A stretch of DNA of 64,000 bases from Phycisphaerales bacterium (GTDB lineage Bacteria; Planctomycetota; Phycisphaerae; Phycisphaerales; UBA1924). The DNA lies in assembly GCA_029260495.1 (NCBI GenBank), contig JAJDDD010000020.1, positions 62,001 through 126,000 on the forward strand, in the 5' to 3' direction. Shown piece by piece: positions 9,422 through 55,100 of the stretch. Both the position numbers and the translations under genes were made by a program. The stretch's first letter is position 1. Each line of letters opens with the position of its first letter. Below the pieces are notes generated by a model, which was given only the letters and a program-made list of their open reading frames with translations, was not told the origin of the DNA and made no database searches.

Positions 9422-9497
9422 CCGGACCAATATCTGCAGCTCGTCTACTTCGAAGAACACCTGCGCCTGACGCTCTTCATCAAGGTATATTTTGTCC

Positions 9498-10214
9498 ATG
9501 AATGCAGCACATAAATCTCCGGTCGCAATTGTCACAGGCGCCGGCGCAGGAGTCGGGCGCGCCACCGCGATCCAGCTTGTTCAACTGGGTTATCGAGTCG
9601 CGCTCGCGTCGCGAACCAAAGAAGATCTCATCGAGACCGCCTCTGCCGCCGGCCCTCGCGCACAAACGCTCATCGTTCCAACCGACGTCGCGATCCCGGA
9701 GCAGGTGCGCCACCTTGTCGAACACACGCACGCAACCTTTGGCAGGATCGACGCGCTCGTCAACAACGCCGGCGTCGCGCCGCTCCTGCCTATCGATCAG
9801 ACCGATCCCGAAACGCTGCACAAGACGTTCGCGATCAATGCGCTTGGGCCGGGATATGCGATTCACGCGCTCTGGCCTATTTTTAAAGCGCAGCGATCAG
9901 GCCGCGTCGTCAATGTTTCGACCCTCGGCACAGCTGACCCCTTCCCCGGTTTTTTCGCATACGCTGCATCTAAAGCGTCGGTGAATCTGTATGCCAAGAG
10001 CATCGCGATTGAAGGCGCCGATATCGGCGTGCGCGCCTTTGCCGTCGCCCCAGGCGCGATCGAAACCAACATGCTCCGCGAGCATTTCGATGAAGCGACA
10101 ATCCCGCAGGAAGCTTGCCTGACGCCGGAAACAGTCGCTGGGGTCATCGTCGAGTGCGTCACGGGCGAGCGCGACGCTGAGAACGGCCAGACGCTTTTTC
10201 TCTCCCAGACGTAA
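9498..10214 (+). CDS. Short-chain dehydrogenase/reductase
   Basis: Classical SDR of 238 residues that oxidises or reduces an unknown alcohol or ketone with NAD(P). Visible elements are the cofactor loop TGAGAGVG (residues about 13-20), the NNAG motif (89-92), catalytic Ser141 in NVSTLG, and Tyr155/Lys159 in AYAASKAS. The ALASRT segment after the second strand hints at NADP preference through its Arg. An in-frame TTG at 9492 with AAGGT 5 nt upstream is an equally good start. It stands alone, about 75 bases after the CNNM pair and 90 bases before the peptidase gene. Confidence 0.9.
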   Translation: MNAAHKSPVAIVTGAGAGVGRATAIQLVQLGYRVALASRTKEDLIETASAAGPRAQTLIVPTDVAIPEQVRHLVEHTHATFGRIDALVNNAGVAPLLPIDQTDPETLHKTFAINALGPGYAIHALWPIFKAQRSGRVVNVSTLGTADPFPGFFAYAASKASVNLYAKSIAIEGADIGVRAFAVAPGAIETNMLREHFDEATIPQEACLTPETVAGVIVECVTGERDAENGQTLFLSQT

Positions 10215-10305
10215 GATATACCGCAGGCAGCCCATACACTGCCGCCTGCACTCAAGAGCATCCCGAATCGGCTCGTTCGCCAAACACAACTCCGGAGAAG
10301 ATGAC

Positions 10306-12249: not shown

Positions 12250-12300
12250 ACTACGGCGTGCAGACATTTTCTCGCGCCGCCACTCGATAGGAGTTTTTCA

Positions 12301-12768
12301 ATGACTTACAACGACAACAACGAGAAAATTATCGAAGCCCTCATCCGCGCCTACAACAGCGAGATCGAAACCGTCGCCAACTACATCGCCAACTCCGTCA
12401 ATCTCGATGGCGTGCGCGCCAACCACATTAAAGAATCACTTCAAGCAGATATTCAGGAAGAGCTAGACCACGCCCAACTCCTCGCCAAGCGAATAAAAGT
12501 CATCGGCGGACTTGTGCCAGGCTCACAATCCCTCAAAATGTCACAAACCTCACTCCAAACCCGTGATGACACAACAGATGTCGTCTCTGTCATTCGCGGC
12601 GTCATCGACGCGGAAGAAGGCGCAATCAACACATATGAAGAAATCGCCCGCCTGACCGACGGAGTAGATTTTGCAACCCAGGATCTCGCGATTCAACTTC
12701 TCGCCGACGAACAGGAGCACCGCCGCGAGTTCGTCGGATTCCTCAAGGAGTACGAGAACAGCGCGTGA
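12301..12768 (+). CDS. Ferritin-like (bacterioferritin-type) di-iron protein
   Basis: A 155-residue all-helical protein with the two-half ferritin-like pattern of metal ligands: Glu in YNSEIETVANYI and EELDH in the first half, Glu in VIDAEEGAINTYEEI and ADEQEHRREF in the second. It may store iron or handle peroxide. AGGAG lies 6 nt before the ATG. The last codons overlap the next gene (GTGA). I cannot tell true bacterioferritin, which has a haem-binding Met, from the smaller ferritin-like family of demethoxyubiquinone- or rubrerythrin-type proteins; no rubredoxin domain is present. Confidence 0.8.
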   Translation: MTYNDNNEKIIEALIRAYNSEIETVANYIANSVNLDGVRANHIKESLQADIQEELDHAQLLAKRIKVIGGLVPGSQSLKMSQTSLQTRDDTTDVVSVIRGVIDAEEGAINTYEEIARLTDGVDFATQDLAIQLLADEQEHRREFVGFLKEYENSA

Positions 12769-13973
12769 AGTCGGAAACCGCTGTGGGCGTCGGCGTGAAC
12801 ATCCTCATCGCGCCGGACAGCTTCAAAGAGTGCATGACGAGCAGCGTTGCTGCAAGCGCGATCGCCGTTGGCGTGCGCCGCGCCATCAAAGAGTTCATAG
12901 TTGACGCAAATGTAATTCTGTGTCCTGTTTCCGATGGCGGCGACGGCCTGCTCAGTTCGCTCAGTGACGATCCGAACGCCACAACCATCACAACCCCCGC
13001 CCGCTCCGTCGTAGGCGAGCGCCCAATCCCGTGGCGGCTTATCGACGCGCCTCTCGAATCCAGCCGCACCGCCATCATTGAAAGCGCCGCCGTCGTCGGC
13101 CTGCATCTTCTTCCCCCCGACCAACGCAACCCCGAATCACTCTCAACCGCTGGCCTTGCCGATCTCATACGCGTTGCTCTCGATGCGCAGGTCAGCCAAA
13201 TCATCATCGGTCTCGGCGGTTCCGCGACCTGTGACGCCGGCGTCGGGTGCGCCAGCGCCCTCGGCGCGCACTTCTTTGATGAACAAGATCATCCCATCCC
13301 CGCCCCCACCGGCGCCGACCTGCCCCGCATCACCCACATTGATGTAAGAAACATGGATCATCGCCTGTCGCGCGCCACCCTCACCGCCGCATGCGATGTC
13401 AATAATCCACTCTTCGGCCCCAATGGCGCCGCCCGCGTCTTCGCCCCACAAAAAGGCGCCACAGCTGAACAAGTCGATCGCCTCGATGCGAGCCTCGCCA
13501 ATCTCGCACGCCGCTGCGCCGAAGCAGGGCTCGACGCTGATCCAGACGATCTCGGCGCAGGCGCCGCCGGCGGGCTCGGTTTCGGCCTCGCCGCCTTTGC
13601 CGGCGCGAAACTCAGCCCCGGCGCCGAACTTTTCCTCCACTTTTCCGGCTTCGCCGGTCATCTCACGACCGCCGACCTCGTCATCACCGGCGAAGGTCGG
13701 CTCGACGCCACATCACTCGCCGGAAAAGCGACCGGCGCCGTCGCCAAAGCCGCCCGCGACGCCGGCGTCAACATAATCGCACTCGTCGGCCAGCTTGATC
13801 CAGCCGCGCCGGAAGCCAGGCATCATTTCGATCGTGTCGAAATCATCACACCGCCGGACCTCCCCCTCGCTCAAGCAAAAGAACAAGCCCGCGACCGACT
13901 CACCGCCGCAGCAACCCGGGTCACACGCGAGTTTCTCCAGAACCGCCATCGACTCTCGCCCAAATCCAAATGA
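12765..13973 (+). CDS. Glycerate kinase (GarK/GlxK family)
   Basis: Phosphorylates D-glycerate with ATP to 2- or 3-phosphoglycerate, feeding glyoxylate, serine or sugar-acid carbon into glycolysis. Family motifs are NILIAPDSFKECMTSS at the N-terminus, IGLGGSATCDAGVGCA, GAGAAGGLGFGLAAF and VITGEGRLDATSLAGKA. I list the GTG at 12765, which overlaps the previous stop and has AAGGAG 12 nt upstream; the GTG at 12795 would put the start just before the first conserved strand and is a serious alternative. An alanine/serine-glyoxylate-type aminotransferase lies 2 kb away, which fits a serine-to-glycerate route, although the two are not in one operon. The gene has strongly C-ending codons. Confidence 0.93.
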   Translation: MKSETAVGVGVNILIAPDSFKECMTSSVAASAIAVGVRRAIKEFIVDANVILCPVSDGGDGLLSSLSDDPNATTITTPARSVVGERPIPWRLIDAPLESSRTAIIESAAVVGLHLLPPDQRNPESLSTAGLADLIRVALDAQVSQIIIGLGGSATCDAGVGCASALGAHFFDEQDHPIPAPTGADLPRITHIDVRNMDHRLSRATLTAACDVNNPLFGPNGAARVFAPQKGATAEQVDRLDASLANLARRCAEAGLDADPDDLGAGAAGGLGFGLAAFAGAKLSPGAELFLHFSGFAGHLTTADLVITGEGRLDATSLAGKATGAVAKAARDAGVNIIALVGQLDPAAPEARHHFDRVEIITPPDLPLAQAKEQARDRLTAAATRVTREFLQNRHRLSPKSK

Positions 13974-14028
13974 CTCCAATCCACCCGACGCCGGCGCCCG
14001 CGCCCAGCCATCTGGTATCCTCCCAGCC

Positions 14029-14601
14029 ATGCCCATCCGTGATGAGGACATCCTGCTCGTCGATTCCCCGCCGATGAACGCCAACGAGCGCCTCTACATC
14101 TGGCCAATCGTCATTGGCATTGTTGTCACGATGAGGCACTTCTTCACCAGCTTCGGCCAGGGAAGAGTCTTCTCCAAGCTCGGCCTGCCCAACACCAGCA
14201 GAACCATGCAGTACCCCGAAGAGCGACGCGAGAATATGCCCATCGAGGAAGGCGGCTCGCTTAAGGACAACTTCCGCGGCGTCCACCGGCTCAACCGCGA
14301 TGATGACGGCCGCGTCAAGTGCGTCGCCTGCATGATGTGCCCGACGCTCTGCCCCGCCAACTGCATTCACATCGTCGCCGGCGAATCTCCCTGGGACGAT
14401 CGCGAGAAGTACCCGGTGAAGTTTGATATTGACGAGCTTCGCTGCATCTATTGCGGCATGTGCGAAGAAGCCTGCCCCGTCGACGCCATCGAACTCACCA
14501 CCGAGTACGACGTGATCGGCCTCTCGCGCCAGGAAATGATCTTCGACAAGGAAAAGCTGCTCTCGATCTACGATGTGACCATCGACAAGAAGCCGATGTA
14601 G
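14029..14601 (+). CDS. nuoI: NADH-quinone oxidoreductase subunit I (isolated gene)
   Basis: NuoI carries the N6a and N6b [4Fe-4S] clusters of respiratory complex I, passing electrons towards the quinone. The 190-residue product has two full ferredoxin motifs: CVACMMCPTLCP (Cys 98, 101, 104, 108) and CIYCGMCEEACP (Cys 139, 142, 145, 149), an N-terminal amphipathic/hydrophobic segment (IWPIVIGIVVTMRHFF) and the family segment VHRLNRDDDGRVKC. The frame stays open to 13795, but only sequence from ATG 14029 resembles the family. No other nuo gene is nearby, which is unusual because nuoI normally sits in a nuoA-N operon. Confidence 0.93.
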   Translation: MPIRDEDILLVDSPPMNANERLYIWPIVIGIVVTMRHFFTSFGQGRVFSKLGLPNTSRTMQYPEERRENMPIEEGGSLKDNFRGVHRLNRDDDGRVKCVACMMCPTLCPANCIHIVAGESPWDDREKYPVKFDIDELRCIYCGMCEEACPVDAIELTTEYDVIGLSRQEMIFDKEKLLSIYDVTIDKKPM

Positions 14602-14607
14602 CTCAAC

Positions 14608-15624
14608 TTACTCTGGCGCCGCAGCTTCAGGCGCTTTCACTTCAGGCGGCGCAACGAAGTCGTAGATCGGCTGACCGGAGATGAAGTTGGCGACCGTTTC
14701 GTCAAACTGCTCCGGAAAATCCCACATGATGTAGTTCTTGCAGTTAACGAACTTCGCCGTCATCACGCTTGCGTAGCTTCCCATCAGACGCATTGATTGC
14801 TCTCGCTTCTGCTGAGCTTGCCACGCGCGCACGTCCGTGGGTGGGCTGTCCACCGTCATATATGTCGCGAGCATCGGCGCCGCAAGGTCATGAAGGTCCG
14901 TTTCCAAGTCAAAGCGAATCAACTCATTAAGCCACTGAGCCTTAACGCTTGCCTCCGTCTCGCGCATCACGCCTGCGAGCCATTCGACACGGTCTTCATT
15001 GATCGAATACGTTGAAGGAACCTGCAGCGACTGCTCCCACCTGTCGTTATCGAACTGCTTGATCAAAAACACCGTTTCATCCGCTGATGCATTCCGCTCT
15101 TCAATGCTGACTCGCGCACCATCTCCCATTGGCATCCAGGGAAGAAATGCGTCTACCGCAATCACCTGGCTCACATACTTCGGATACTCCAGCGCAAGGC
15201 GAGTCGCGAGCACCCCACCCAGCGTCGTGTGCCCGATGACGACCGGCGAATCAATATCCTCATCACGAACCAGATTCCGAAGCTGGCGCACCGCGTTGTC
15301 CATCCACGGCGTTGTGGATTCATCCGGGTCGCGCGCTCCCTCTTCATCTACCTCAGGCATGGGTGGCGCTTCACTCCCAGACGAACCGGGAAGCGAAATC
15401 GCGTACATCGTGTACTGCGCGCTGTTACGCTCCATGAAGTCTTCCCAGATGCGCCAGTCCGTGCTCAGCCCGTGAATCAGGATCATCGCTTGATCCCCCT
15501 CGCCGCGCTTCTCGACATGCGCAAAGGGCGTACCCTTCGCGATCGCCGTCCCTGCAAAGAGCAAGGTCATCGCCATCGCGACCGCACACACACGGGCGAC
15601 ACTACTTTCAATCACACTCTTCAT
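14608..15624 (-). CDS. Exported alpha/beta-hydrolase-fold protein with degenerate active site
   Basis: A 338-residue protein with a signal sequence (SVIESSVARVCAVAMAMTLL then FAGTAIA). The alpha/beta hydrolase core is clear: MILIHGLSTDWRIWEDF (oxyanion strand), SPVVIGHTTLGGVLATRLAL (nucleophile elbow) and a C-terminal VNCKNYIMWDFPEQFDETV. In active enzymes the elbow is GHSxGG; here it is GHTTLGG, with Thr133/Thr134 and one extra residue. The C-terminal His of the usual (R)HFIMxDxPExF block is Asn297. Both substitutions are plain in the DNA. The protein is probably catalytically dead or uses other chemistry. It is convergent with nuoI, 6 bases apart. The open frame runs to 15783, but the signal peptide fixes the start near 15624. 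Confidence 0.85.
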   Translation of the reverse strand: MKSVIESSVARVCAVAMAMTLLFAGTAIAKGTPFAHVEKRGEGDQAMILIHGLSTDWRIWEDFMERNSAQYTMYAISLPGSSGSEAPPMPEVDEEGARDPDESTTPWMDNAVRQLRNLVRDEDIDSPVVIGHTTLGGVLATRLALEYPKYVSQVIAVDAFLPWMPMGDGARVSIEERNASADETVFLIKQFDNDRWEQSLQVPSTYSINEDRVEWLAGVMRETEASVKAQWLNELIRFDLETDLHDLAAPMLATYMTVDSPPTDVRAWQAQQKREQSMRLMGSYASVMTAKFVNCKNYIMWDFPEQFDETVANFISGQPIYDFVAPPEVKAPEAAAPE

Positions 15625-15692
15625 CGCTGCACTTGCTCCTCTTCCAGCCTGCGCTCGTTGGGTCAAATCCTTGAAAATAATCATCGTCACTT

Positions 15693-16871
15693 CTACCGGC
15701 CGGCTGCGTTTCCGCTGCCTTTCCTGAGCATTTCTCGTATCAGTCGCCGCCCAGCCCCAGGCTGACCGTCCGATAGTCCGCAACGCTCCAGTTCCACGGC
15801 GATCGCATCAATCCCCGCAATCGTATCGGCAGCCGTCACCGCCCCCATGTGCGAGATTCGCAGCACACGCCCCTTCCATTCATCCTGCCCCCCCGCAAAA
15901 AGCACCCGATGCTCCCGTGCGCACGCCTGACGAAGCCCGTCATCGACTCCGTCCGGATATCTCACCGCCGTCACCGAATCGCTCGGCGCCTCCGACGCCA
16001 GCTCCAGACCCATCTCAGTGAGAGCCCGCCGGCTCGCCTCCGCCAGCCCCGCCGTCCGCGCCCAGACCTCCTCAAGCCCCTCCGCTTCAATCATCGCCAA
16101 CGCTTCGACAAGCCCAAAAACAAGCCCGATCGCCGGCGTCTGCGGGCTCAGCCCGGCGCCTTCCTCTTCCGTCAGCCAGCGCCGCAGATCAAGAGAAAGT
16201 GGCGCCAGCGAAACACCTGTCGCTTCTTTCAGCCGCGCGACAGCCCGCGCCCCCATCGCAACCAAACCAACGCCCGGCGGGCACATCAGCGCCTTCTGGC
16301 TCGCGCTGCACGCGACATCAATCCCCCACGCATCCATCTCAAAGGGGATCGCCCCAATGGAGCTGACACCATCAACAATCACGATCGCATCTGACGCTTG
16401 CATGCGCGTTATCTGAGCGAGCGTGCGCACATCATTGACCGTCGCGCTGCTCGTCTCACAATGCGCCATCACGACCGCCCGAGTCTCAGGATGTGCCCCC
16501 AGCGCCTCAGAAAGTTGGTCTGGCGCAATCGCTCGCCCCATCGGAGCCGAGATCGTGACAACGCCCACGTCATACAACGCGCCGGTGCGCGCATAGACCT
16601 CACACCAGCGCCGCCCGAACTTCCCGTTCTCGCACACGATCACCGTGTCACCCGGTCTCAAAAACGACAATTGCGCCGCTTCGACCGCCGTCGTTCCTGT
16701 GCCGGTGAGCATCGCGACCGGGCCGGCGGTCTGGAACACCCGCGCCAGCCCGTCTCCACACGAGCGCCACACCGCTGCAAACTCTTCGGTGCGGTGATGG
16801 ACGATCGGCGCCGCCAGCGCCTGGCGCACTCGATCGGGAACGGGAGTTGGTCCGGGTGTCAGAAGAAGCAT
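15693..16871 (-). CDS. PLP-dependent alanine/serine-glyoxylate aminotransferase family protein
   Basis: A 392-residue class-V aminotransferase. It opens with LLLTPGPTPVPDRVRQAL, the hallmark of the alanine-glyoxylate/serine-pyruvate group, has GTGTTAVEA near the cofactor phosphate, the Asp in VIVDGVSSIGA (Asp167) that contacts the PLP ring nitrogen, and the Schiff-base lysine in ACSASQKALMCPPG (Lys193). Likely reactions are glyoxylate plus alanine or serine, or phosphonoacetaldehyde-type relatives; the sequence does not decide. The start is ATG 16871, where similarity begins; the frame extends to 16907. It is divergent from the DUF971 gene. The codons are G-ending, opposite to the plus-strand genes beside it, which supports a strand-wide skew rather than a gene effect. 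Confidence 0.9.
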   Translation of the reverse strand: MLLLTPGPTPVPDRVRQALAAPIVHHRTEEFAAVWRSCGDGLARVFQTAGPVAMLTGTGTTAVEAAQLSFLRPGDTVIVCENGKFGRRWCEVYARTGALYDVGVVTISAPMGRAIAPDQLSEALGAHPETRAVVMAHCETSSATVNDVRTLAQITRMQASDAIVIVDGVSSIGAIPFEMDAWGIDVACSASQKALMCPPGVGLVAMGARAVARLKEATGVSLAPLSLDLRRWLTEEEGAGLSPQTPAIGLVFGLVEALAMIEAEGLEEVWARTAGLAEASRRALTEMGLELASEAPSDSVTAVRYPDGVDDGLRQACAREHRVLFAGGQDEWKGRVLRISHMGAVTAADTIAGIDAIAVELERCGLSDGQPGAGRRLIREMLRKGSGNAAGR

Positions 16872-44354: not shown

Positions 44355-46295
44355 ATGGCAGAACTCATCCCCTATCCATTCGGCCGGCTCGTCACGCGGA
44401 TGCTGCGCGAACTTGACAACGGGAAATCCTGTTTCGACCTCCCCTCATCAAAGTTTTTCACCGGCGCCGACGAGCTCGATTTCTCCGTCTCGTTCCACGG
44501 TGTCCGCGCTTCAACGCCCTTAGGCCCCGCGGCCGGCCCGCACTCGCAGATGGCGCAGAACATTGCGCTCGCATGGCTGGGCGGCTCGCGGATTATCGAA
44601 CTCAAAACGGTCCAGGTTCTCGATGAGCTCACCCTCCCAAGACCATGCATCGACATGCGCACAGTCGGCTACAACGTTGAATGGTCGCAGGAGTTGAAAC
44701 TCCAGCAATCGCTGGAAGAGTACGTCAAGGGGATGATGCTCATCACGATCCTCAAACACTCCGGCTATCTTGATCTGCAACCCGGCGCCGAGGACACCAT
44801 CTATGACATGAGCGTCGGGTACGACCTAGCTGGCATCCAATCGCCAACAGTTCGCGCATTCCTCGACGGCATGCGTGACTCTTCGCCAATGATCGATCAC
44901 TTGCGCGGGCAGATCCCCGAGGAGTTCGCCTGGGCCCGCGATCTGAAGTTCCCCACAACAATCTCGAACACACTCACCCTCAGCACCTTCCACGGTTGCC
45001 CGCCTGATGAGATTGAGCGCATCATCGATTACCTGCTGCGCGAGCATCGTCTGCACTGCATCATCAAGCTCAACCCAACCCTGCTTGGCAAGCCGCGCGT
45101 CGATGAGCTTCTTCATGATCGGATGGGATACTCGCACGTCAACGCGCCAATTGAAGCCTTTGAGAAAGATACGAAGTGGGACCAGATGGTCGGCTTCGTC
45201 ACACGCCTCAAACAAACCGCAGACTCCCTGGGGCTCGGCCTCGGAGTAAAGTTCACCAACACGCTGCTCGTCGAGCACGATGGTGATTATCTGCCGGCGA
45301 CTGAAAAGGAAAAGTACCTCTCCGGCCACGCGCTGCACCCCATCTCAATGACTCTTGTCGGCGAGTTCCGACGGGAGTTTGGCGCCGACATTCCAGTCTC
45401 CTTCTCCGCTGGAATCGACCGCAGCAACTTCGCCGACGCTGTCTCTTTGGGACTCACGCCAATCACCACCTGCTCTGATCTGCTCCGCCAGGGCGGATAC
45501 GCCCGGCAAGCTGGGTATTTCCAGGCGCTGCGCAAACGAATGACCGACCTTGGCGCAAGCACGATTGACGACTTCATCATTAAATCCGCCAGCGCGGGGA
45601 CAACAACGCCCACGCGCGAACAGGCGATTCTGCTCAACACTGAGTTGTATACGCAGACCGTCGCTGACAACCCGCGCTACGGCGCTGAAGCGAACAGCAA
45701 AGCCCCAAAGAAAATCGGCTCGAAGCTGGAACTCTTCAACTGCATCACCTGCGACAAGTGCATTCCCGTCTGTCCCAACGATGCAAACTTCACGCTCTCG
45801 ATGCCGCCGGAAGCAATCCCGGTTGAGATACTTCACCAGAATGAAGGTGTCTGGGTAAGCGAGCCGTGTGAATCGGTCGTGCTCAACAAGAAGCACCAAA
45901 TCGCCAACTTCGCCGACTTCTGCAATGAGTGTGGCAACTGCGATGTGTTCTGTCCCGAGGATGGCGGTCCGTACATCCTCAAGCCGAGATTCTTTGGTTC
46001 GGAAGCGAGCTTCGACGAGTTCGCTGAGCACGACGGGTTCTTCATCGAGCGCTCAAACACTTCAACGCGATTCCTTGCTCGCTTTGACGGAGCCCGCTTT
46101 GAAGTGATCTTCGCGAGTGATGATGTTTCATTTGCCGGCGATGGATTTCATGTCAGGCTCAACCTGAACGATCCAACCGGCACAATCAACGGAGAGGCGT
46201 CAGGCCCGGTGGACCTGACATACCTGCGCATTATTGACGCGCTGCGGACCGCGATTTTTCACGATGATGCCCCGGTCAGTTATGTGAACGTGTAA
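44355..46295 (+). CDS. ygfK: YgfK-like putative flavin/iron-sulphur reductase, N-terminal half only
   Basis: Resembles the N-terminal part of YgfK, long annotated as putative selenate reductase subunit and found in purine-catabolic clusters. The opening (MAELIPYPFGRLVTRMLREL), GPAAGPHSQMAQNIALAWLG, ELKTVQVLDELTLPRPCID and MSVGYDLAGIQSPTVRAFLD match the dihydroorotate-dehydrogenase-like fold. Two [4Fe-4S] motifs follow, CITCDKCIPVCP (about residue 462) and CNECGNCDVFCP (about 521). Enterobacterial YgfK is about 1030 residues and carries a GltD-like NAD(P)H/FAD half; this protein stops at 646 with no such half. It ends at 46295, directly against the convergent nitrilase gene. The codons are C-ending. 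Confidence 0.85.
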   Translation: MAELIPYPFGRLVTRMLRELDNGKSCFDLPSSKFFTGADELDFSVSFHGVRASTPLGPAAGPHSQMAQNIALAWLGGSRIIELKTVQVLDELTLPRPCIDMRTVGYNVEWSQELKLQQSLEEYVKGMMLITILKHSGYLDLQPGAEDTIYDMSVGYDLAGIQSPTVRAFLDGMRDSSPMIDHLRGQIPEEFAWARDLKFPTTISNTLTLSTFHGCPPDEIERIIDYLLREHRLHCIIKLNPTLLGKPRVDELLHDRMGYSHVNAPIEAFEKDTKWDQMVGFVTRLKQTADSLGLGLGVKFTNTLLVEHDGDYLPATEKEKYLSGHALHPISMTLVGEFRREFGADIPVSFSAGIDRSNFADAVSLGLTPITTCSDLLRQGGYARQAGYFQALRKRMTDLGASTIDDFIIKSASAGTTTPTREQAILLNTELYTQTVADNPRYGAEANSKAPKKIGSKLELFNCITCDKCIPVCPNDANFTLSMPPEAIPVEILHQNEGVWVSEPCESVVLNKKHQIANFADFCNECGNCDVFCPEDGGPYILKPRFFGSEASFDEFAEHDGFFIERSNTSTRFLARFDGARFEVIFASDDVSFAGDGFHVRLNLNDPTGTINGEASGPVDLTYLRIIDALRTAIFHDDAPVSYVNV

Positions 46296-47228
46296 TCAGG
46301 AATCGATGTGCGGATTTCGATCACGCGCAAGATTCCACCCTGATGGATCGGATTCTTCGAGAGACTCGAAATCAATATCAGCGATCACCAGATTGTCGTG
46401 CTTGCTGATATTGTCGCACCGCCCGTTGGGACCGACAAAGTGGGAGTCGCCGAAATAGTCCTGATTCCAGGGCGATTCAACTCCCCGGCGGTTGGACCCA
46501 CCGATGAAGACGTTGTTCCGGGCTGCGTCGCACTCGAACTCAATGTTCCACATACGCCGGGATTTTTCACCAAACGTCACCGCCGGCGAAAAAATCAACT
46601 GCGCTCCAGCCCGCGCTAAACCCTCAGCCATGCGCGAAAAATGACGGTCATAGCAGATGCTCACGCCGACGCGCCCGACAGATGTCGAGAAAACAGGCAG
46701 CAGTGGATTGTCGCCAAGAATCTTCGGCGACGCATCATTGTAAGGAACTACTGCGGGCCCGTAGTAAAATGATTCATCAAAAGCACCCTGCTCGTTGGCG
46801 CCGTGCGGAATATGCGCTTTGCGGAACTTGCCAAGGTTGGCGCCATTGCGATCAATGACAACCGCGGTGTTGAACCGATCGCCAGTTTGTGCGCACAACT
46901 CATGGATCGGCGCAATGATGACGACGCCGTGTCTGGACGCCTCTGCTTGCATACGGGTGACGCTGGGGCCGCCCGCTGCATCCTCTGCCATATCGAGCCA
47001 CATCGGATCGCGAGCGAGCGCGAAGTAAGGCGCGGGGAAAAGCTCACCCAGCCCGATGATATGCGCGCCTGCGCTCGCCGCTTGCGCGATGAGTTCAGAG
47101 TGGTGATCGAGGTTCGCCTTGCGGATTTCGTCCAGCTTGCCGGCTAGAGTGGAAAGTCCATCGACGCGCGCAGGCATGCCCCGATATGCGCTCACCGTCT
47201 GCGTCATCGCGGCGTGCACTGTGCTCAT
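46296..47228 (-). CDS. Carbon-nitrogen hydrolase, beta-ureidopropionase-like nitrilase family
   Basis: A 310-residue cytosolic amidase of the nitrilase superfamily. The catalytic triad is Glu62 (LGELFPAPYF), Lys137 (KFRKAHIPHG) and Cys192 (SICYDRHF). The length and the RRGVESPWNQDYFGDSHFVG region resemble beta-ureidopropionase/N-carbamoylputrescine amidohydrolase, which remove a carbamoyl group to release CO2 and ammonia. Substrate is inferred from context: last in the run of purine-catabolic-type genes. It starts with ATG overlapping the stop of the M20 gene (ATGA), so it is co-translated. The frame extends upstream to 47288 without similarity. Confidence 0.9.
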   Translation of the reverse strand: MSTVHAAMTQTVSAYRGMPARVDGLSTLAGKLDEIRKANLDHHSELIAQAASAGAHIIGLGELFPAPYFALARDPMWLDMAEDAAGGPSVTRMQAEASRHGVVIIAPIHELCAQTGDRFNTAVVIDRNGANLGKFRKAHIPHGANEQGAFDESFYYGPAVVPYNDASPKILGDNPLLPVFSTSVGRVGVSICYDRHFSRMAEGLARAGAQLIFSPAVTFGEKSRRMWNIEFECDAARNNVFIGGSNRRGVESPWNQDYFGDSHFVGPNGRCDNISKHDNLVIADIDFESLEESDPSGWNLARDRNPHIDS

Positions 47229-48502
47229 CCGTCTTCGTCGCTGAGTGAAAGGATCACAGACAGCAGCGTGTTGATCCCGTCGGCGCACTGTTTGGGTGTG
47301 GAGAGTTCGCGCGGGTTATGGCTGATGCCGTCGTTCAATCCGGGCGTGAAAATCATCGCCGTCTTGCACACCGCAGACCATTCCTGTGCATCGTGCCCAG
47401 CGCCGGCGAGAATCCGCCGATGTGATAACCCCTGCCCGTCAGCAGCAGCTTCAATAGCCCGCTGCACCGATTCGTCAAAAACCACCGCTGGCGTGCGCGC
47501 CGTTTGGACGGATTCAATCGTCACGCCCAACTCTTGCGCAATGTGCTGCTGATACGCATCGAGGTTCGTCTCGGCCCGACGCATCGCATCATCATCCGGG
47601 TTGCGCAGGTCCACCGTCGCGATGACGCGACCTGGAATTACATTTATCATCCCCGGCTCGGGATGGATCACACCCATCGTGGCGCGCATCTCGGCGCCGT
47701 ACTCGCCGCCTGCGCACATCTCATGCAAACGACAATTTATCCGCGCCGCCGCCAGCCCCGCGTCTTTGCGAAAGCTCATCGGCGTGGCGCCAGCGTGCGC
47801 ACTGGCGCCGGTGATCGTCAGTCTTCGCCAGGAAATCCCCTGCACGCCCGTGACAACGCCCAAGTCTATCTCCTCATGAATCAGTGTGGGGCCCTGCTCA
47901 ACGTGGCACTCGACAAAGGCGTGAGGCGTGCGCATGCCGACCGCTTCTGCGCCGAGAAAACCAATCGATTTGAGTTCTTGTTGTACGGATTTGCCATCAT
48001 CGTCGGTGAGGGAATACGCCTGCTCCAGCGGAATGCGCCCAACGGCGACGGCGCTGCCCAGCATGTCCGTCCCGAATCGGCAACCTTCCTCATCGGTAAA
48101 GAAGGCGATCGTAAGCGGACGACGGGTGGTAACGCCGTGATCGTTCAGCGTGCGCACAACTTCCAACGCCCCGAGCACGCCCAGCGCGCCATCGAAGCGA
48201 CCGCCAGTCGGAACGGAATCCACATGAGAACCGGACATCACCGGCGCCTGGGCGGGCTCGAGCCCCGCTCGGTCAGCGTAGGTGTTGCCGATCGCGTCGA
48301 CGCTGACTGTGAGCCCCGCTTCCTCGAACCAGCCCTTGACCAGCCGGCGCCCCCGAGCGTCCTCTGGCGACAGGGCCAGCCGGCGCACGCCTGTGACGCT
48401 CACCTCTTCGTCGTGATAGGCGCCGACCGCGCCGAGTTCGTCGAGCGACGCCATCAGTCGGTCGGTGTTGATCTTCAGTTGTGCGCGCGCGTCGGTCGTC
48501 AC
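47225..48502 (-). CDS. M20-family N-carbamoyl-L-amino-acid hydrolase / allantoate amidohydrolase
   Basis: A 425-residue zinc amidohydrolase. Metal-binding motifs of the family are GSHVDSVPTGGRFDGALGV (His and Asp), FFTDEEGCRFG (catalytic Glu pair), and ECHVEQGP; a C-terminal GAGHDAQEW and the dimer domain (GASAHAGATPMSFRKDA) complete the HyuC/AllC pattern. It hydrolyses ureido or carbamoyl groups from allantoate-like or N-carbamoyl amino acids. YgeY in purine clusters belongs to the same large family, but this protein reads as HyuC/AllC. Start GTG 48502 overlaps the SsnA stop (GTGA); the frame extends to 48538. It forms part of an overlapping operon. Confidence 0.9.
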   Translation of the reverse strand: MTTDARAQLKINTDRLMASLDELGAVGAYHDEEVSVTGVRRLALSPEDARGRRLVKGWFEEAGLTVSVDAIGNTYADRAGLEPAQAPVMSGSHVDSVPTGGRFDGALGVLGALEVVRTLNDHGVTTRRPLTIAFFTDEEGCRFGTDMLGSAVAVGRIPLEQAYSLTDDDGKSVQQELKSIGFLGAEAVGMRTPHAFVECHVEQGPTLIHEEIDLGVVTGVQGISWRRLTITGASAHAGATPMSFRKDAGLAAARINCRLHEMCAGGEYGAEMRATMGVIHPEPGMINVIPGRVIATVDLRNPDDDAMRRAETNLDAYQQHIAQELGVTIESVQTARTPAVVFDESVQRAIEAAADGQGLSHRRILAGAGHDAQEWSAVCKTAMIFTPGLNDGISHNPRELSTPKQCADGINTLLSVILSLSDEDG

Positions 48503-49758
48503 AGCTTCTCCCAGAGTCGCATAGCCTCCCGCTGACAACCCGCGAGCAGCTTGTCCTCATCCACCAGCGCACAGCGCCCGTGATCGAGGACGAGCTTGCC
48601 CCGCGCGATCACGGATTCGACATGAGCCCGACTGAGCCCGTACATCATGTGCGCAGGCCAGTTGTCGGTCGTGATGGGTGTCGGCGGGTTATAGTTGAGA
48701 ACGACGAGGTCGTTGTCCGATGCGCCCGCAAACTGATTTGTTTTCAGATAGCGATGCACCGAACGAAGGCGGTTATGAGCTTCCTGCGGTGACATCCCCC
48801 CTTCTTCGCGCTGAGCCATCATGTACGCAGTCCGGGCGGCGCCCAGCGCATCGGAGTGCATCCCATCCGTCCCGATCATCACCTTGTCAGGGAAAGCGCG
48901 AGCATCGAGGGCGCCGACCGCGTTGTTTTGATTGGATTCGGACTGTTGCGACAGCCAGGCGCTTGAGCCGGCGATGATCTCTCGCTCATTGTTGTCCAGA
49001 TGAATGCAGTGGGCGAGAATTGTTTTGGATGATTCTAAAGCGCCGGCGGCGCGCAGTCGCTCGATGACACGACAGTCATAGTTTTCAAGGCAGTGGTCCT
49101 GATCCGCTTGATCCTCCGCGACGTGAATGTGCAAGCCCGTGTCGTGCGTGTGCGCAAGATCAATGGCGCTTTTGAGCAGCGAATCAGAGACGGTGAACGA
49201 TGCGTGTAATCCGACGAGCCCCTGATGGTTTGTCAGGTAGTTGTCGGTCTCCTGAAGACCTGCATCGCGGCTACTTTCGCCATCGCGATCGCTGAGTTCG
49301 TAGCAGAGGAGATGCCCCACGCCGACCTCGTCGAGAGCGCCGGCGATGGTGTGCAGGGAACCCTGAGCGGCGTTCGGGGAGGCGTGGTGGTCGATGATAA
49401 CCGACACACCGCTTTTGAGCGCATCAATCGCGACAGCGTGCGCACAGGCGCGGACCATGTCGAGGTCGAGCGCCTTGTCCAGGCGCCACCAGATGAGTTC
49501 GAGAATTTCAACGAAGTTTTTCGGGGCTATTGGAGGCGCGGGCATGCCGCGCGCCAGGGCGGAGTAGATGTGGTGGTGGGCGATGGCGAAGGCGGGGGTG
49601 ACGATCCTGCCTGCGCAGTCGATGACCTTGGCGCCCTTGGGCGCACGATCGACGAACTCGAGATCGCCTGCGGGATCCTCACGAACAACGATGGTTCCCG
49701 TGCGCATGGATGCGCCGTCACGGCTGATGAACGTCGCGTTGGTCAGGGCGATGGGCAT
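48499..49758 (-). CDS. ssnA: SsnA-like amidohydrolase (putative aminohydrolase of purine-catabolic clusters)
   Basis: A 419-residue metal-dependent amidohydrolase. The N-terminal HxH is at residues 61-63 (AHHHIYSALARGM). Later motifs are LHIHVAEDQ, ILAHCIHLDNNE and MIGTDGMHSDA with the catalytic Asp. The ALARGM and SDRDG segments are typical of SsnA, the guanine-deaminase/atrazine-chlorohydrolase relative present in E. coli beside ygfK and xdhD. It may deaminate or hydrolyse a heterocycle or its product. It lies directly after the xanthine-dehydrogenase-like gene (one base apart) in the same transcript. Confidence 0.88.
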   Translation of the reverse strand: MPIALTNATFISRDGASMRTGTIVVREDPAGDLEFVDRAPKGAKVIDCAGRIVTPAFAIAHHHIYSALARGMPAPPIAPKNFVEILELIWWRLDKALDLDMVRACAHAVAIDALKSGVSVIIDHHASPNAAQGSLHTIAGALDEVGVGHLLCYELSDRDGESSRDAGLQETDNYLTNHQGLVGLHASFTVSDSLLKSAIDLAHTHDTGLHIHVAEDQADQDHCLENYDCRVIERLRAAGALESSKTILAHCIHLDNNEREIIAGSSAWLSQQSESNQNNAVGALDARAFPDKVMIGTDGMHSDALGAARTAYMMAQREEGGMSPQEAHNRLRSVHRYLKTNQFAGASDNDLVVLNYNPPTPITTDNWPAHMMYGLSRAHVESVIARGKLVLDHGRCALVDEDKLLAGCQREAMRLWEKL

Positions 49759-52350
49759 CTATGAAAAATCGATCGTAGCCTGTGCGACGGAATCAGTCAT
49801 GGGGAGTGTGCGCCGGCGGACGCCATCGTAGAGAGCGAGCGCGTTGGCGACGGCTGGGGCGGTGGGGACGAGCCCGATCTCACCGACCCCCTTGGCGCCG
49901 TAAGGACCGAACTCGTCTGGGGCTTCGACGCCGCGGACGACGATGGCGGGGGTTTGGCGAGCGCGCAAAACGCCGCACTTGCGCAGGCGCGTTGACTTAA
50001 GCTCGCTGTTTTCCTGCGGCAGATCTTCGGTGAGGGCGTAGCCGAGGCCCATGTGAATGGAGCCCTCGATTTGACCCTCGAAGAGGGTTGGGTTCATGAC
50101 TCTTCCGGCGTCGTGGGCCGCGATGACGCGCTCAATCTTGCCGTCATCGTCGAGAATGACGACCTGTGTAGCGTAGCTGTAGGAATAGTGAGTGCAGATA
50201 GGCTTGCCGTTTTCTTTGCCAGGCTTGTTGGTCCAGTCGCACACCCACTCGCCGAAAAACTCTTTCCCCACGAGATCGGCGAGACCGGAGCCGTTCATGG
50301 CAGCTTTCAGAGGTTTGCAGGCCTCGATGATGGCGTTACCGACCAAACTGGTGGCGCGCGAGGCGGTGGTCATTCCGCAGGGTGTTTCGTGATGCGTCTG
50401 GACATGGACGGTGCAGATTTCCGGCGGGAGGCCGGTCTCTTCACAGAACGTTTGGATCGCCATGGTGTGGACACCCTGACCCATTTCGGTCCAGCCGTGA
50501 TGGATTTCGACATGATCTGGGGCTTTGACGATGAGGCGGGCGGTTCCGGAATCGGGCATGCCGTTGCCGATGCCGGTGTTCTTGAGACCGCAGGCGATGC
50601 CGGCGTGTTTTGCGCTTCTGAAGTCGTCTTTGACCGCTTCGAGCGTGGCGCGAATGCCGACGCCTGAAGCAAGCACCTGCCCGGTGGCGGTTGACGATCC
50701 TTCAGTGAGGGCGTTGTCGTAGCGGAACTGCCAGCGGTCGAACCCGCCGAGCTCGCAGAGTTCATCGATGGCGCATTCGATGGCGAAGGTCGCCTGGTTG
50801 GCGCCGAAACCGCGCATCGCGCCGCAGGGCAGGTTGTTGGTGTAGACGCAGGTGGAGATGACATCGACATTGGGCACGGTGTAGGCGCCGGTGGAATGAC
50901 CAGTGGCGCGCTCGAGCACCTTGGCGCCGACGGAGGCGTAGGCGCCAGTGTCGCCGGTGATGCGGGCGCGGACAGCGAGGAGCTTTCCGTTGGCGTCGCA
51001 ACCAACCTTGTAGGCCATGTGGAGCGGATGGCGCTTGGGATGAACGCGGATGGACTCGTCGCGGGTGAGTTCGATCTTGACCGGCCGGTGAAGAAGATGC
51101 GCCATCAGGGCGGCGTGACCCTGAACGGAGAGATCTTCTTTCCCGCCGAATCCGCCGCCGTTGGGGACGAGTTCGATTTCGACGTTCTTTTCTTCAAGGC
51201 CTAACAACAAGGCGACTTGCCGGCGATCTTCGTAGACGCCCTGACTCTGGGAGTAGAGCTTAACGCCGCCATCGATGGGCTCTGCGATGCAGGCTTCGGG
51301 CTCCATGAATGCATGCTCGATGCGCTGGGTGGTGTACTCGCGCTCGACGATGTGGGCGCAGTCAGCGAAGGTTTTTTCTGCGTCTCCCTTGAGTGCTTTG
51401 GAGACGGAGAGAACGTTGCCGGATTCATGAATCTGTGGCGCGTCAGGCTTGAGGGCATCGAACATATCGGAGACGGGTTGGAGGACTTCGTATTCGATCT
51501 CGATGGCGTCCGCTGCTTCGCGGGCCGCCTGTCTGGTTTCGGCGGCGACGCAAGCGATACAGTCACCGATGTAGCGGGTCGTCTCACCTACTGCGACCAT
51601 CAGGGGCCAATCGGGAACGATGAGTCCGACGCTGCGCTGTCCGGGGACATCGTTGGCGAGGAAGACACGCTCAACACCCGGGATTGCTTGTGCTTTGGCA
51701 ATATTGATTTTTTTGACGATGGCGCGGGGATGGTCGCTAAGCCGAAGGGCGCCGAAGAGTTGCCCTTTGATGGTCATGTCTGCGACGAAGGGACGTTTGC
51801 CGAGGACGAGCGGGCGGACGTTGTGCTTGACGAGGCGCGATCCGACGGCGCCGGTCTGCTCTGTGGCGTTAATGGGCTCGCTGGTGCGAATAGATTCGCC
51901 GGCGCGCTGGATGGATTCAATAATCTTGGTGTACCCGGTGCATCGGCACAAGTGCTGATTGAGCGCAGTCCGGATGTCTTTTTCGCTGGGGTCGGGGTTG
52001 GATTCAAGGAGGTTGGCGGCGCGGGTGACGATCCCGGGGATGCAGAAACCGCACTGCGCCCCGCCGCTGACAGCGAATGCGTCGGCGAGTGTATTCATGA
52101 CGCTCGGGTCGGCGCCCTCGATGGTGCGCACGGCGCCGCCGGCGACCTTCTTCATCTGGATGACGCAGGAGAGGACGATCTTGCCATTAAGATCGACGGC
52201 GCAGCATCCGCAGGCTGCCTGTGGGGCGCACCCATCCTTGACGGAGGTGATGCCGGCCTCCTCGCGGAGGTAGGTCATGAGCGACGTGGTCGGATCGCCG
52301 GCGAAGGTGGCGTCGGCGCCATTGAGATTGAAGCTGATCGATTCGCTCAT
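49759..52350 (-). CDS. Molybdenum hydroxylase, selenium-dependent xanthine dehydrogenase type (no FAD domain)
   Basis: A 863-residue fused 2Fe-2S/molybdopterin hydroxylase. Residues 1-150 hold two [2Fe-2S] sites: Cys 41, 47, 50 and 62 (spacing C-x5-C-x2-C) and Cys 100, 103, 135, 137. The Mo domain has GGGFGGKED, GAMRGFGANQ, TEMGQGVHTM and GAKGVGE, the last with the catalytic Glu. There is no FAD domain and no neighbouring FAD-subunit gene, so electrons must leave by another partner. The form matches the TIGR03311-type Se-dependent xanthine dehydrogenases, whose cofactor has a labile selenium; that assignment is inference. The gene starts 12 bases after the PLP-lyase stop. Confidence 0.88.
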   Translation of the reverse strand: MSESISFNLNGADATFAGDPTTSLMTYLREEAGITSVKDGCAPQAACGCCAVDLNGKIVLSCVIQMKKVAGGAVRTIEGADPSVMNTLADAFAVSGGAQCGFCIPGIVTRAANLLESNPDPSEKDIRTALNQHLCRCTGYTKIIESIQRAGESIRTSEPINATEQTGAVGSRLVKHNVRPLVLGKRPFVADMTIKGQLFGALRLSDHPRAIVKKINIAKAQAIPGVERVFLANDVPGQRSVGLIVPDWPLMVAVGETTRYIGDCIACVAAETRQAAREAADAIEIEYEVLQPVSDMFDALKPDAPQIHESGNVLSVSKALKGDAEKTFADCAHIVEREYTTQRIEHAFMEPEACIAEPIDGGVKLYSQSQGVYEDRRQVALLLGLEEKNVEIELVPNGGGFGGKEDLSVQGHAALMAHLLHRPVKIELTRDESIRVHPKRHPLHMAYKVGCDANGKLLAVRARITGDTGAYASVGAKVLERATGHSTGAYTVPNVDVISTCVYTNNLPCGAMRGFGANQATFAIECAIDELCELGGFDRWQFRYDNALTEGSSTATGQVLASGVGIRATLEAVKDDFRSAKHAGIACGLKNTGIGNGMPDSGTARLIVKAPDHVEIHHGWTEMGQGVHTMAIQTFCEETGLPPEICTVHVQTHHETPCGMTTASRATSLVGNAIIEACKPLKAAMNGSGLADLVGKEFFGEWVCDWTNKPGKENGKPICTHYSYSYATQVVILDDDGKIERVIAAHDAGRVMNPTLFEGQIEGSIHMGLGYALTEDLPQENSELKSTRLRKCGVLRARQTPAIVVRGVEAPDEFGPYGAKGVGEIGLVPTAPAVANALALYDGVRRRTLPMTDSVAQATIDFS

Positions 52351-52362
52351 GTCGTCCTCGGA

Positions 52363-53820
52363 TTATGCGCTCGCGACGCGCGCGTTGAACTCGTTGATCC
52401 TCTGATCCCATTCGTCTGCCTGCGCGTATGTTTTCGTCCAGAACTCGGGCTCCCACAGACGGCGGAGGTCGTCGATGTCGCGCTGCTGCTGTTCGACCCA
52501 GGTGAAGTACTTGAGGTTGTGGATCGCTTTGCGGTCGGCGTAGGTGAGCTCTTTGTAATGGTCGGTCGTGCATCCTTCGAGCCAGCGCCCGTAGTGGCGG
52601 GCAGCGGTGGTTGGATCGTACTCGCCGTACGCGGTTCGCTCTTCTTCAACTCTGCTGGCGTAGAGCTCCATCGAATCGGTGATGGGGAAGGCGATGATGT
52701 CGTTCTGTGTGAGTTCGAACATTTTCGCGGTCTTGATCGCGGCGACCATGTTGCCGATCGAGGAAATGCCCAGAAGCGGCAAGGAGTTCATCGTTTTTTG
52801 ATCGACACCCATCGACTTAAGCAGAGCGTTGCCGGCTGGCTCGTTGAAGCATCGCATCAGGTCGATGCACTGTTGATCGTCGATGGCGCAGACGGCGTCG
52901 GTGTTGCGGACGTTGTGAACCCAGGGGACGTGTTTGTCGCCGATGCCTTCGATTCGGTGCTCGCCGAAACCATTTGTGAGCAGTGTCGGACACTGGAGCG
53001 CTTCGACCGCGACGATGCGCATGTGCGGGGCGAGTGTCTTGAGGTAATCCCCGGCGGCGATGGTTCCAGCGGAGCCAGTTGCGGAGACGAAGGCGGCGAG
53101 GCGGTCATTAGGATTGGAGATTGTGTTGACAGCGTCTTCGAAGGCGGGACCGGTGACGTTGTAGTGCCAGATTGGGTTGCCGAACTCTTCGAACTGATTG
53201 AAGACGATGCACTCGGGCCTGTTGCGTTTGATCTCCCAGCAGGCGTCGTAGATTTCCTTGACGTTTGATTCGGAGCCGGGCGTGGCGATGATCTCGGCGC
53301 CAATGTCGCGCAGCCAGTCGAATCTTTCGCGGCTCATGCCCTCGGGGAGTATGGCGACGGCGTCGCAACCAAGCAGGGCGCAGTCGAAGGCGCCGCCGCG
53401 GCAGAAGTTGCCGGTTGAGGGCCAGACGGCCTTGTTGGTGAGCGGGTCGAACTCGCCGGTGATGAGCCGGGGGATGAGGCAGCCGAAACCGGCGCCGACT
53501 TTGTGCGCACCGGTGGGGAACCACTTGCCGACAAGTCCGACGATCCGGGCATCGACGCCGGTGAGTGAGGCTGGGAACTCGACCCAGTTGCCATTGTTGA
53601 AACCGCCGCCGGTTTCGACAGGCTCATTTTTCCAGGTGATGCGGAAGAGGTTGAGCGGATCGACGTCCCACAGGCCGACCTGTTTCAGACGATTGCGGAA
53701 GTCAGCGGGGATGAGGGCGGGGTTGCGCATTTGCGCGAAGGTGGGGATGACGATGCCGCGTTCTTTGCAGCGGGAGACAGCGTTCTCAAGTGCGGTGGCG
53801 GTTGTTGTGGTTGTGGTCAT
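52363..53820 (-). CDS. Fold-type II PLP-dependent lyase
   Basis: A 485-residue pyridoxal-phosphate enzyme of the beta family. The Schiff-base lysine is Lys107 in FPTGAHKVGAG, the phosphate/substrate loop is PSTGNFCRGGAF (residues about 133-144), and SATGSAGTIAAGDYLK supplies the glycine loop. It resembles cysteine-synthase/tryptophan-synthase-beta relatives, but is longer than diaminopropionate ammonia-lyase (about 400 residues), the PLP enzyme of the E. coli cluster. In this cluster a role in amino-acid beta-elimination is plausible. The start is ATG 53820; the frame opens at 53829. The gene precedes the molybdenum hydroxylase and follows the threonine-synthase-like gene after 80 bases. Confidence 0.82.
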   Translation of the reverse strand: MTTTTTTATALENAVSRCKERGIVIPTFAQMRNPALIPADFRNRLKQVGLWDVDPLNLFRITWKNEPVETGGGFNNGNWVEFPASLTGVDARIVGLVGKWFPTGAHKVGAGFGCLIPRLITGEFDPLTNKAVWPSTGNFCRGGAFDCALLGCDAVAILPEGMSRERFDWLRDIGAEIIATPGSESNVKEIYDACWEIKRNRPECIVFNQFEEFGNPIWHYNVTGPAFEDAVNTISNPNDRLAAFVSATGSAGTIAAGDYLKTLAPHMRIVAVEALQCPTLLTNGFGEHRIEGIGDKHVPWVHNVRNTDAVCAIDDQQCIDLMRCFNEPAGNALLKSMGVDQKTMNSLPLLGISSIGNMVAAIKTAKMFELTQNDIIAFPITDSMELYASRVEEERTAYGEYDPTTAARHYGRWLEGCTTDHYKELTYADRKAIHNLKYFTWVEQQQRDIDDLRRLWEPEFWTKTYAQADEWDQRINEFNARVASA

Positions 53821-53900
53821 TCGTCTCACGCGATTTCATCATTCAGGAGAAACCGTGATTGTAGCGGGTCCACAGGCGAACCCGGCCATTGAATCGGGGA

Positions 53901-55100
53901 TTACGGCTCAACATCCGTCGGTTCACCGGCGATGGCGATGGCGGAATCGACATCCTTGAGGCCGCTGCCGGTGATGACGGCGAGCACGTCGGCGCCGGGG
54001 TCGATGACGCCCTCCTCGATGGCGCGTTTGACGCCGGCAACCGAGGCAGCCGCTGCGGGCTCTGCGAAGACGCCGGCCCGGGCGCCTGCCGCTTTCATTG
54101 CTTCAGAAATTTCATCATCGTTGACGCGGACGAAGGCGCCGTCGCAAGCGCGGACGCGGTGCACTGCTTTACGCCAGTTGCGCGGGACGGGGACGTCGAT
54201 GCTGTCGGCGACGGTTTGGCCGGCGCGATCCGACGGGAGGGCGCCCGTCTCGAAAGCGATGGCGATGGGATCGACACCTTCCGCTTGCACGCCGAGCACG
54301 CGCGGAACCCGGTTGATGAATCCGAGCTCGCGCATATGCATCAGGCCTTTGGCGACGCCGGCGATGGTGCAGCCGTCGCCCACTGAAACGACGACCCAGT
54401 CGGGGAGGTCCGTTGCGGTTTGTTCGGCGATTTCGAGGCCGCAGGTTTTCTTCCCTTCGACGAGATAGGGGTTGATGGCGCAGTTGCGGTTGTGCCAGCC
54501 GTGCGATTCGCACTCAGCGCTGCAGAGGTCGTAGGCTTGAGCGTAGGTACCGTTTACACGGCGGACATCGGCGCCGAAGATGAGCAGCTGCGCGACCTTT
54601 GGTTTTGGGGCGCGCTTGGGGACGAAGATGGTCGCGTTGATTCCTGCCATCGCGGCGAAGCCTGCGCAGCTGGAGGCGGCGTTGCCGGTCGAGGCGCAGG
54701 CGATCCGGGTGTCGCCCATCTGCATGGCGCGCAGGACGCCGACGGACGAGGCGCGATCTTTAAAACTGCCCGTGGGGTTGCGGCCCTCGTCTTTGAGCCG
54801 GATTCGTTTCGCGCCGGCCCAGGCGGCGAGGCGGGGTGAATCAAGGATGGGCGTCCATCCGACGGGCCAGGTGAAGGCGCGCTCGTCGGGTTCGATCGGG
54901 AGCAGCTCGGCATATCGCCAGTGATTGACTGGGCGACTTGCGAGCGTTTTCGGCGTCATTAACGCGCGAACGCGATCCAGATCGAAGTTGATTTCAAGAA
55001 CCGCGGTGGGATCGTCGCAGGAAGGGCAGACCCCGGCGGAGCGCGGGAATGGGGCGGATTGACCGCAAACAACGCAGACGCAGTTGGTGGCGCAGGACAT
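53901..55100 (-). CDS. Threonine-synthase-like PLP enzyme with zinc-ribbon N-terminus
   Basis: A 399-residue fold-type II PLP enzyme. Cys 9, 12, 25 and 28 form two CxxC pairs of an N-terminal zinc-ribbon-like domain. NPTGSFKDRAS carries the Schiff-base Lys114, CASTGNAASSCAGFAAMAGI the phosphate loop, and VSVGDGCTIAGVAKGL the glycine-rich loop. Plain threonine synthase (thrC) is one reading; another is an ammonia-lyase related to threonine synthase, recruited into the catabolic cluster. The sequence alone does not decide. It is the first gene of the minus-strand run; the 143 bases before it (55101-55243) are AT-richer and probably carry its promoter. Confidence 0.85.
   Translation of the reverse strand: MSCATNCVCVVCGQSAPFPRSAGVCPSCDDPTAVLEINFDLDRVRALMTPKTLASRPVNHWRYAELLPIEPDERAFTWPVGWTPILDSPRLAAWAGAKRIRLKDEGRNPTGSFKDRASSVGVLRAMQMGDTRIACASTGNAASSCAGFAAMAGINATIFVPKRAPKPKVAQLLIFGADVRRVNGTYAQAYDLCSAECESHGWHNRNCAINPYLVEGKKTCGLEIAEQTATDLPDWVVVSVGDGCTIAGVAKGLMHMRELGFINRVPRVLGVQAEGVDPIAIAFETGALPSDRAGQTVADSIDVPVPRNWRKAVHRVRACDGAFVRVNDDEISEAMKAAGARAGVFAEPAAAASVAGVKRAIEEGVIDPGADVLAVITGSGLKDVDSAIAIAGEPTDVEP

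Follow-up and report, generated by a model that had tools for sequence, protein, structure and literature searches.

Seven genes clustered at positions 44355-55100 of the window, that is, the whole 64,000-nt stretch of Phycisphaerales bacterium DNA analyzed, encode a YgfK-like reductase, a nitrilase-fold amidase, an M20 carbamoylase, SsnA, a Se-type xanthine dehydrogenase, and two PLP enzymes:

44355..46295, plus strand: YgfK-like reductase of 646 aa, with a DHODH/DPD-like FMN domain and two 4Fe-4S motifs, the GltD-like FAD/NAD(P)H domain of the E. coli protein being absent
46296..47228, minus strand: nitrilase-superfamily N-carbamoyl amidase (Nit), beta-ureidopropionase-like (CN_hydrolase, PDB match, ATGA overlap, triad)
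47225..48502, minus strand: M20 hydantoinase/carbamoylase-family amidohydrolase of the N-carbamoyl-L-amino acid/beta-alanine/allantoate type (TIGR01879)
48499..49758, minus strand: SsnA-like amidohydrolase (PRK07203, similarity to E. coli SsnA, tree)
49759..52350, minus strand: selenium-type xanthine dehydrogenase (XDH) with fused Fe-S and Mo domains (TIGR03311), in a cluster without FAD subunit
52363..53820, minus strand: PLP_A, CysK/CBS-fold PLP enzyme of ~485 aa, with N- and C-terminal extensions and the Schiff-base Lys in PTGAHK
53901..55100, minus strand: PLP_B, PLP enzyme resembling threonine synthase, with zinc-ribbon cysteines at the N terminus; its paralogue ThrC on contig C6 scores higher

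All seven are open reading frames at these coordinates, and the families assigned to them in the preliminary description hold. The six minus-strand genes, described there as one overlapping run, are indeed tightly packed, but true overlap is confined to two junctions. Because 4-bp stop-start overlaps then result at SsnA/M20 (GTGA) and M20/Nit (ATGA), M20 likely starts at the GTG at 48502 and Nit very likely at 47228, the upstream start at 47288 being unlikely. XDH and SsnA abut, whereas gaps of 12 bp and ~80 bp separate PLP_A from XDH and PLP_B from PLP_A, respectively. YgfK is encoded on the opposite strand, and its gene and that of the nitrilase meet end to end (46295/46296). Neither a urate/purine transporter nor a carbamate kinase or a dedicated regulator was identified within the cluster, and the flanking genes (a response regulator, a TrmB-like methyltransferase, and PrkA) look unrelated to it. 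Antisense ORFs overlapping the cluster were set aside as codon-bias by-products.

To place the locus in its lineage, we turned to the family of the window genome (3.2 Mb, 96.8% complete), where PLP_A occurs in eight of 100 sampled genomes, the window's own included. The seven others share the order PLP_B-PLP_A-XDH-SsnA-M20-Nit, and their proteins are 52-87% identical to those of the window; on one short contig (L084), PLP_B was not found. Between the window and its nearest relative, dN is 0.08-0.17 for every gene. This shared order and the low dN throughout put the arrangement far beyond chance, and bear out the earlier proposal of a neighborhood conserved in planctomycete relatives, here of the same family. 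YgfK adjoins Nit in four of the seven cluster-bearing relatives, and is present in 7/8 cluster genomes (the exception being G231) as compared to 0/40 family members without the cluster. The window-type nitrilase is similarly restricted, as it was found in seven of 251 genomes of the order, all within this family.

The cluster had been taken for a variant of the ygfK-ssnA-xdh purine/urate type, and its three core enzymes were assessed individually. XDH scored 938 bits against the Se_dep_XDH model TIGR03311 (cut-off 830), the next NCBIfam model reaching 458. Its catalytic Glu lies in GVGEIGL, and comparison with xanthine-type hydroxylases revealed a Glu and an Arg at the xanthine-orienting positions; in XDH, these Glu, Arg, and Glu positions orient and hydroxylate xanthine. 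The protein is only 26% identical to E. coli XdhD, and the E606 position proposed for the latter was uninformative, since it falls in an insertion that window XDH does not have. In YgfK, the N-terminal domain is clear, with a TIGR03315 match covering residues 5-398 of the 1012-position model; without the C-terminal NAD(P)H domain, however, the protein at 412 bits falls short of the 835 set for the full-length model. The two 4Fe-4S motifs of this protein read C463-x2-C-x2-C-x3-C and C523-x2-C-x2-C-x3-C. As a PDB sequence search with YgfK yielded no match, an AlphaFold2 model (pLDDT 79) was searched by fold, which retrieved dihydropyrimidine dehydrogenase, a uracil reductase, as the best match (E 7e-10) along with DHODH, both with modest TM-scores. 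SsnA scored 351 bits with PRK07203 (cut-off 444) and 315 bits with TIGR03314 (cut-off 455), by far its best family, and is 30% identical to its E. coli counterpart. In the SsnA tree, the window's family groups with Bacteroidota proteins of similar clusters (100/99) and away from other Phycisphaerae, so that the history of the cluster seems mosaic. In some Phycisphaerae, a stand-alone GltD/YgfT-like NAD(P)H oxidoreductase adjoins Se-XDH (L032:8795-10123, L107, L113) and is possibly a separated electron-donor subunit for the short YgfK. YqeB/XdhC-like genes adjoin XDH in some relatives (L025, L034, L035).

The Mo domain of XDH scored higher with nicotinate dehydrogenase 3hrd (285 bits) and aldehyde oxidoreductase 1sij (317 bits) than with bovine XDH (240 bits), which, along with the divergent SsnA and a cluster in which no transporter was identified, would suit the degradation of another N-heterocycle (nicotinate-like, hydantoin, or another purine) by an oxidative hydroxylase route with repurposed YgfK and SsnA. 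We regard this as quite unlikely, given that XDH passes TIGR03311 by >100 bits with the next model far behind, that it carries the xanthine-type Glu/Arg/Glu positions, that XdhABC adjoins the cluster in two relatives, and that co-occurrence of the cluster with YgfK is near absolute. TIGR03315 and TIGR03314 also bear selenium names, and the genome holds complete selenocysteine machinery in G000:C9:555001-567000 (L062), namely SelA, SelB, tRNA-Sec, and a SelD with an in-frame UGA at its active site (CAG-U-AGK context). Nonetheless, a selenium/molybdenum reductase cluster unrelated to purines, in the sense of the old "selenate reductase" annotation, is highly improbable: such a cluster would have no use for M20, nitrilase, and PLP genes, and the homologous E. 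coli genes were shown to degrade urate (PMC12507026). The assignment to the purine/urate type is instead upheld by the XDH-YgfK-SsnA trio, the conserved neighborhood, the XdhABC genes of the two relatives, and a genome in which no PF01014-type uricase was found. Contig C10 further encodes adenine deaminase together with XdhABC and XdhC, as well as guanine deaminase.

We next considered the two putative ureido-cleaving enzymes. M20 is of the hydantoinase/carbamoylase type (TIGR01879, 383 bits; cut-off 204), matches N-carbamoyl amidohydrolases with E down to 1e-94, retains the metal-ligand motifs, and gave no BLAST match to E. coli YgeY. The best PDB match of Nit is beta-ureidopropionase 8pt4 (E 5e-28), and its Glu-Lys-Cys triad and CYDRHF motif are conserved, also in a 37% identical paralogue encoded in the pyrimidine locus of the same genome (contig C16). 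Among the seven proteins there is no homologue of YgeW, YqeA, or YgeY, and no Amidohydro_3 protein (UacY type). By similarity, Nit would suit the 3-ureido and M20 the 2-ureido group of a diureido intermediate, but the converse assignment may also hold, given that YgeY too belongs to M20 and that D-carbamoylases are of the nitrilase type.

In the published pathway, a hydantoinase is needed to open ureidomethyl-hydantoin or 5-ureido-dihydrouracil (PMC12507026). The lack of hydantoinase, YgeW, and diaminopropionate ammonia-lyase (YgeX) in the preliminary description is accurate for the locus, where no HyuA was found, but a hydantoinase does exist elsewhere: the only hydantoinase/dihydropyrimidinase of the genome over the TIGR02033 cut-off is encoded on C16. 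The respective locus (L061, G000:C16:130001-150000, 9118-16486) comprises PreA, this dihydropyrimidinase, an aminotransferase, a BtpA/SgcQ-family protein, an NCS2 permease, and the paralogous nitrilase, a gene content that resembles reductive pyrimidine degradation. Relatives retain most parts of it, whether or not they carry the urate-type cluster. A hydantoinase match was scored in 8/8 cluster genomes (one truncated) as opposed to 13/40 others at comparable score (Fisher p = 5e-4), and at the strict cut-off in 7/8 and 12/40, respectively (p = 0.004), although the genomes are related and both tests overstate independence. It also occurs in 5/5 Phycisphaerae of other families with related clusters. 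The C16 hydantoinase, albeit unlinked and also present in about a third of the genomes without the cluster, is thus probably used by the urate-type pathway.

Both remaining enzymes are PALP proteins. PLP_A has an invariant Lys (K110), and its AlphaFold2 model (pLDDT 86.5, pTM 0.90) has O-acetylserine sulfhydrylase as nearest PDB structure (target TM 0.8-0.87). PLP_B reached 296 bits with PRK08197 (cut-off 303) and carries SFKDR and STGN motifs; ThrC on C6, with 550 bits, is a much better threonine synthase. YgeX showed only weak fold-family similarity to PLP_A and PLP_B among the seven proteins. Both have STGN and neither has the Asp that YgeX carries in its Asn-loop.

A scan of genome contigs with PLP_A recovered 80 loci, some of them on contigs of family genomes (e.g., L099, L101, L124), and YgeX was absent from all 80. 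At 29 of these loci, at least two of SsnA, Se-XDH, and YgfK were present, which defined them as urate-type. PLP_B accompanied PLP_A at 27 of the 29, YgeW was found at 15, YgeY at 13, YgeX at none, and M20 plus Nit at three. The latter three all belong to the window's family and have neither YgeW nor YgeY, so that the two solutions are mutually exclusive across the 29 loci. Hence, the M20 plus nitrilase swap was found in the window's family only. The PLP pair in the absence of YgeX, by contrast, is a hallmark of YgfK/SsnA/Se-XDH clusters from Bacteroidota (gene order YgfK-PLP_A-PLP_B-XDH-SsnA, in some cases with a hydantoinase next in line), other Phycisphaerae, and Woeseiaceae; the pair is a widespread replacement for YgeX. 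PLP_A (CysK-like, ~485 aa, 60-70% identical across phyla) was also observed with no urate genes nearby (L100, L104, L105, L110, L112, L115, L129, L138, L140, and others), and its role may therefore be broader. These other contexts revealed no recurrent partner beyond lineage-specific neighbors, and NCBIfam at E 1e-60 returned no family match for a close PLP_A homologue (L099).

Two PLP enzymes where canonical clusters have one, a CysK/CBS fold typical of a family working through aminoacrylate intermediates, and the shared lack of the YgeX Asp would also fit a form of the reductive urate pathway in which the pair does not act on diaminopropionate. PLP_A would then eliminate urea or carbamate from a mono-ureido intermediate (e.g., albizziin), and PLP_B would process the amino acid so formed or the opposite stereoisomer. 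However, the clusters still encode two ureido-cleaving enzymes, either M20 and Nit or YgeW and YgeY, so that the final intermediate would be free diaminopropionate, and this alternative is unlikely.

From the observed gene content, conserved order, co-occurrence, folds, and active-site motifs, we infer a substrate, a set of reactions, and their order, and read the seven genes, with a probability of roughly 70%, as the reductive uric-acid degradation pathway with some of its parts exchanged. This pathway has been reconstituted in vitro with the E. coli and C. difficile enzymes XdhD, YgfK/UacX, SsnA, HyuA, YgeW/UacY, YgeY, and YgeX (PMC12507026). The route would lead from urate through yanthine, ring opening, 2,3-diureidopropionate, and diaminopropionate to pyruvate. 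Se-type XDH would reduce urate to yanthine (2,8-dioxopurine), which the short YgfK is predicted to dearomatize reductively via FMN and 4Fe-4S; since both reductases of the cluster are without an NAD(P)H-FAD module, its electrons probably come from ferredoxin or another carrier. SsnA would open the pyrimidine ring to yield ureidomethyl-hydantoin and/or 5-ureido-dihydrouracil, and the D-hydantoinase/dihydropyrimidinase of the pyrimidine locus the second ring to give 2,3-diureidopropionate. M20 and the beta-ureidopropionase-like Nit would each hydrolyze one ureido group in replacement of YgeW/YqeA and YgeY, both carbamoyl groups thus being hydrolyzed with no gain of carbamoyl-phosphate or ATP. 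Finally, the PLP pair, in place of YgeX, would convert 2,3-diaminopropionate to pyruvate and ammonia. A different route for an N-heterocycle, as suggested in the preliminary description, is not called for, because the substituted enzymes and the pyrimidine-locus hydantoinase can handle the same intermediates.

Some findings count against the reductive urate pathway, namely the scores of YgfK and SsnA below curated family cut-offs, the failure to identify a transporter, carbamate kinase, or dedicated regulator in the cluster, the unlinked hydantoinase that some genomes without the cluster also have, the occurrence of PLP_A alone in unrelated contexts, and the cluster without YgfK in G231. Another is a cytochrome c oxidase subunit I gene in the genome (666 bits; cut-off 671), which makes oxygen respiration probable in this organism, while published work confines the pathway to obligate or facultative anaerobes and considers it possibly a recent gut adaptation (PMC12990295). 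We tentatively go one step further and propose, with somewhat less than even confidence, that environmental planctomycetes which respire oxygen run a reductive urate pathway without uricase. In this scheme, pyrimidine catabolism would have supplied the hydrolases that take off every carbamoyl group, and a module of two PLP enzymes, the usual substitute for YgeX outside gut bacteria, would catalyze the final step.

The window cluster shares with the E. coli genes ygeW-ygeX-ygeY-hyuA-yqeA/ygfK-ssnA-ygfM-xdhD the XDH, the YgfK flavin/Fe-S reductase, SsnA, and the expected intermediates. It differs in having no YgfM FAD subunit, no FAD/NAD(P)H half of YgfK, and no YgeW, YqeA, YgeY, YgeX, or linked HyuA, but an M20 carbamoylase, a nitrilase, and two other PLP enzymes. 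The C. difficile uricolytic cluster (XdhD without YgfM, UacX, UacY) is alike in its XDH without FAD subunit and its reductase without FAD domain, a ferredoxin-type logic, and, in the proposed scheme, in removing a ureido group by hydrolysis rather than phosphorolysis (PMC12507026). It differs from the window in its PydA-like UacX, the counterpart of the short YgfK, in its UacY, an amidohydrolase of the D-aminoacylase type where the window has nitrilase and M20 carbamoylase, and in its YgeX, which the PLP pair replaces in the window. Clusters of Bacteroidota and other Phycisphaerae have Se-XDH, SsnA (that of the window's family being nearest the Bacteroidota form), YgfK, and PLP_A/PLP_B, with no YgeX, but mostly keep YgeW/YgeY (some Bacteroidota with a linked hydantoinase), and M20 plus nitrilase was seen in none. 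The reductive pyrimidine (Pyd) pathway (PreA/PydA, dihydropyrimidinase, beta-ureidopropionase) follows the same chemical logic on pyrimidine substrates, from a separate locus.

The pathway type is known. None of the literature compared, which did not include the key work of Liu et al. and Kasahara et al., describes this combination of replacements; likewise, nothing was found joining ssnA, nitrilase, and uric acid, or Phycisphaerae and urate degradation. Elucidation of the reductive urate pathway dates only from 2025, and the published SsnA-network distribution names neither Planctomycetota nor Bacteroidota (PMC12507026). Core-gene clusters in environmental Planctomycetota, Bacteroidota, and Woeseiaceae widen this distribution and bear on the origin of the pathway. 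The enzyme swaps offer an independent line of material on two questions that have been named as open, namely in which order the ureido groups are removed and the stereochemistry, and the variants are candidate parts for urate-degrading probiotics. Moreover, the published YgeX criterion, "PF00291 near SsnA", lumps at least two non-orthologous solutions. Among Gammaproteobacteria, the Woeseiaceae MAG loci L162, L169, and L174 have YgfK-SsnA-XDH-PLP_A-YgeY clusters, with YgeW, YqeA, and PLP_B in L162 and L169.
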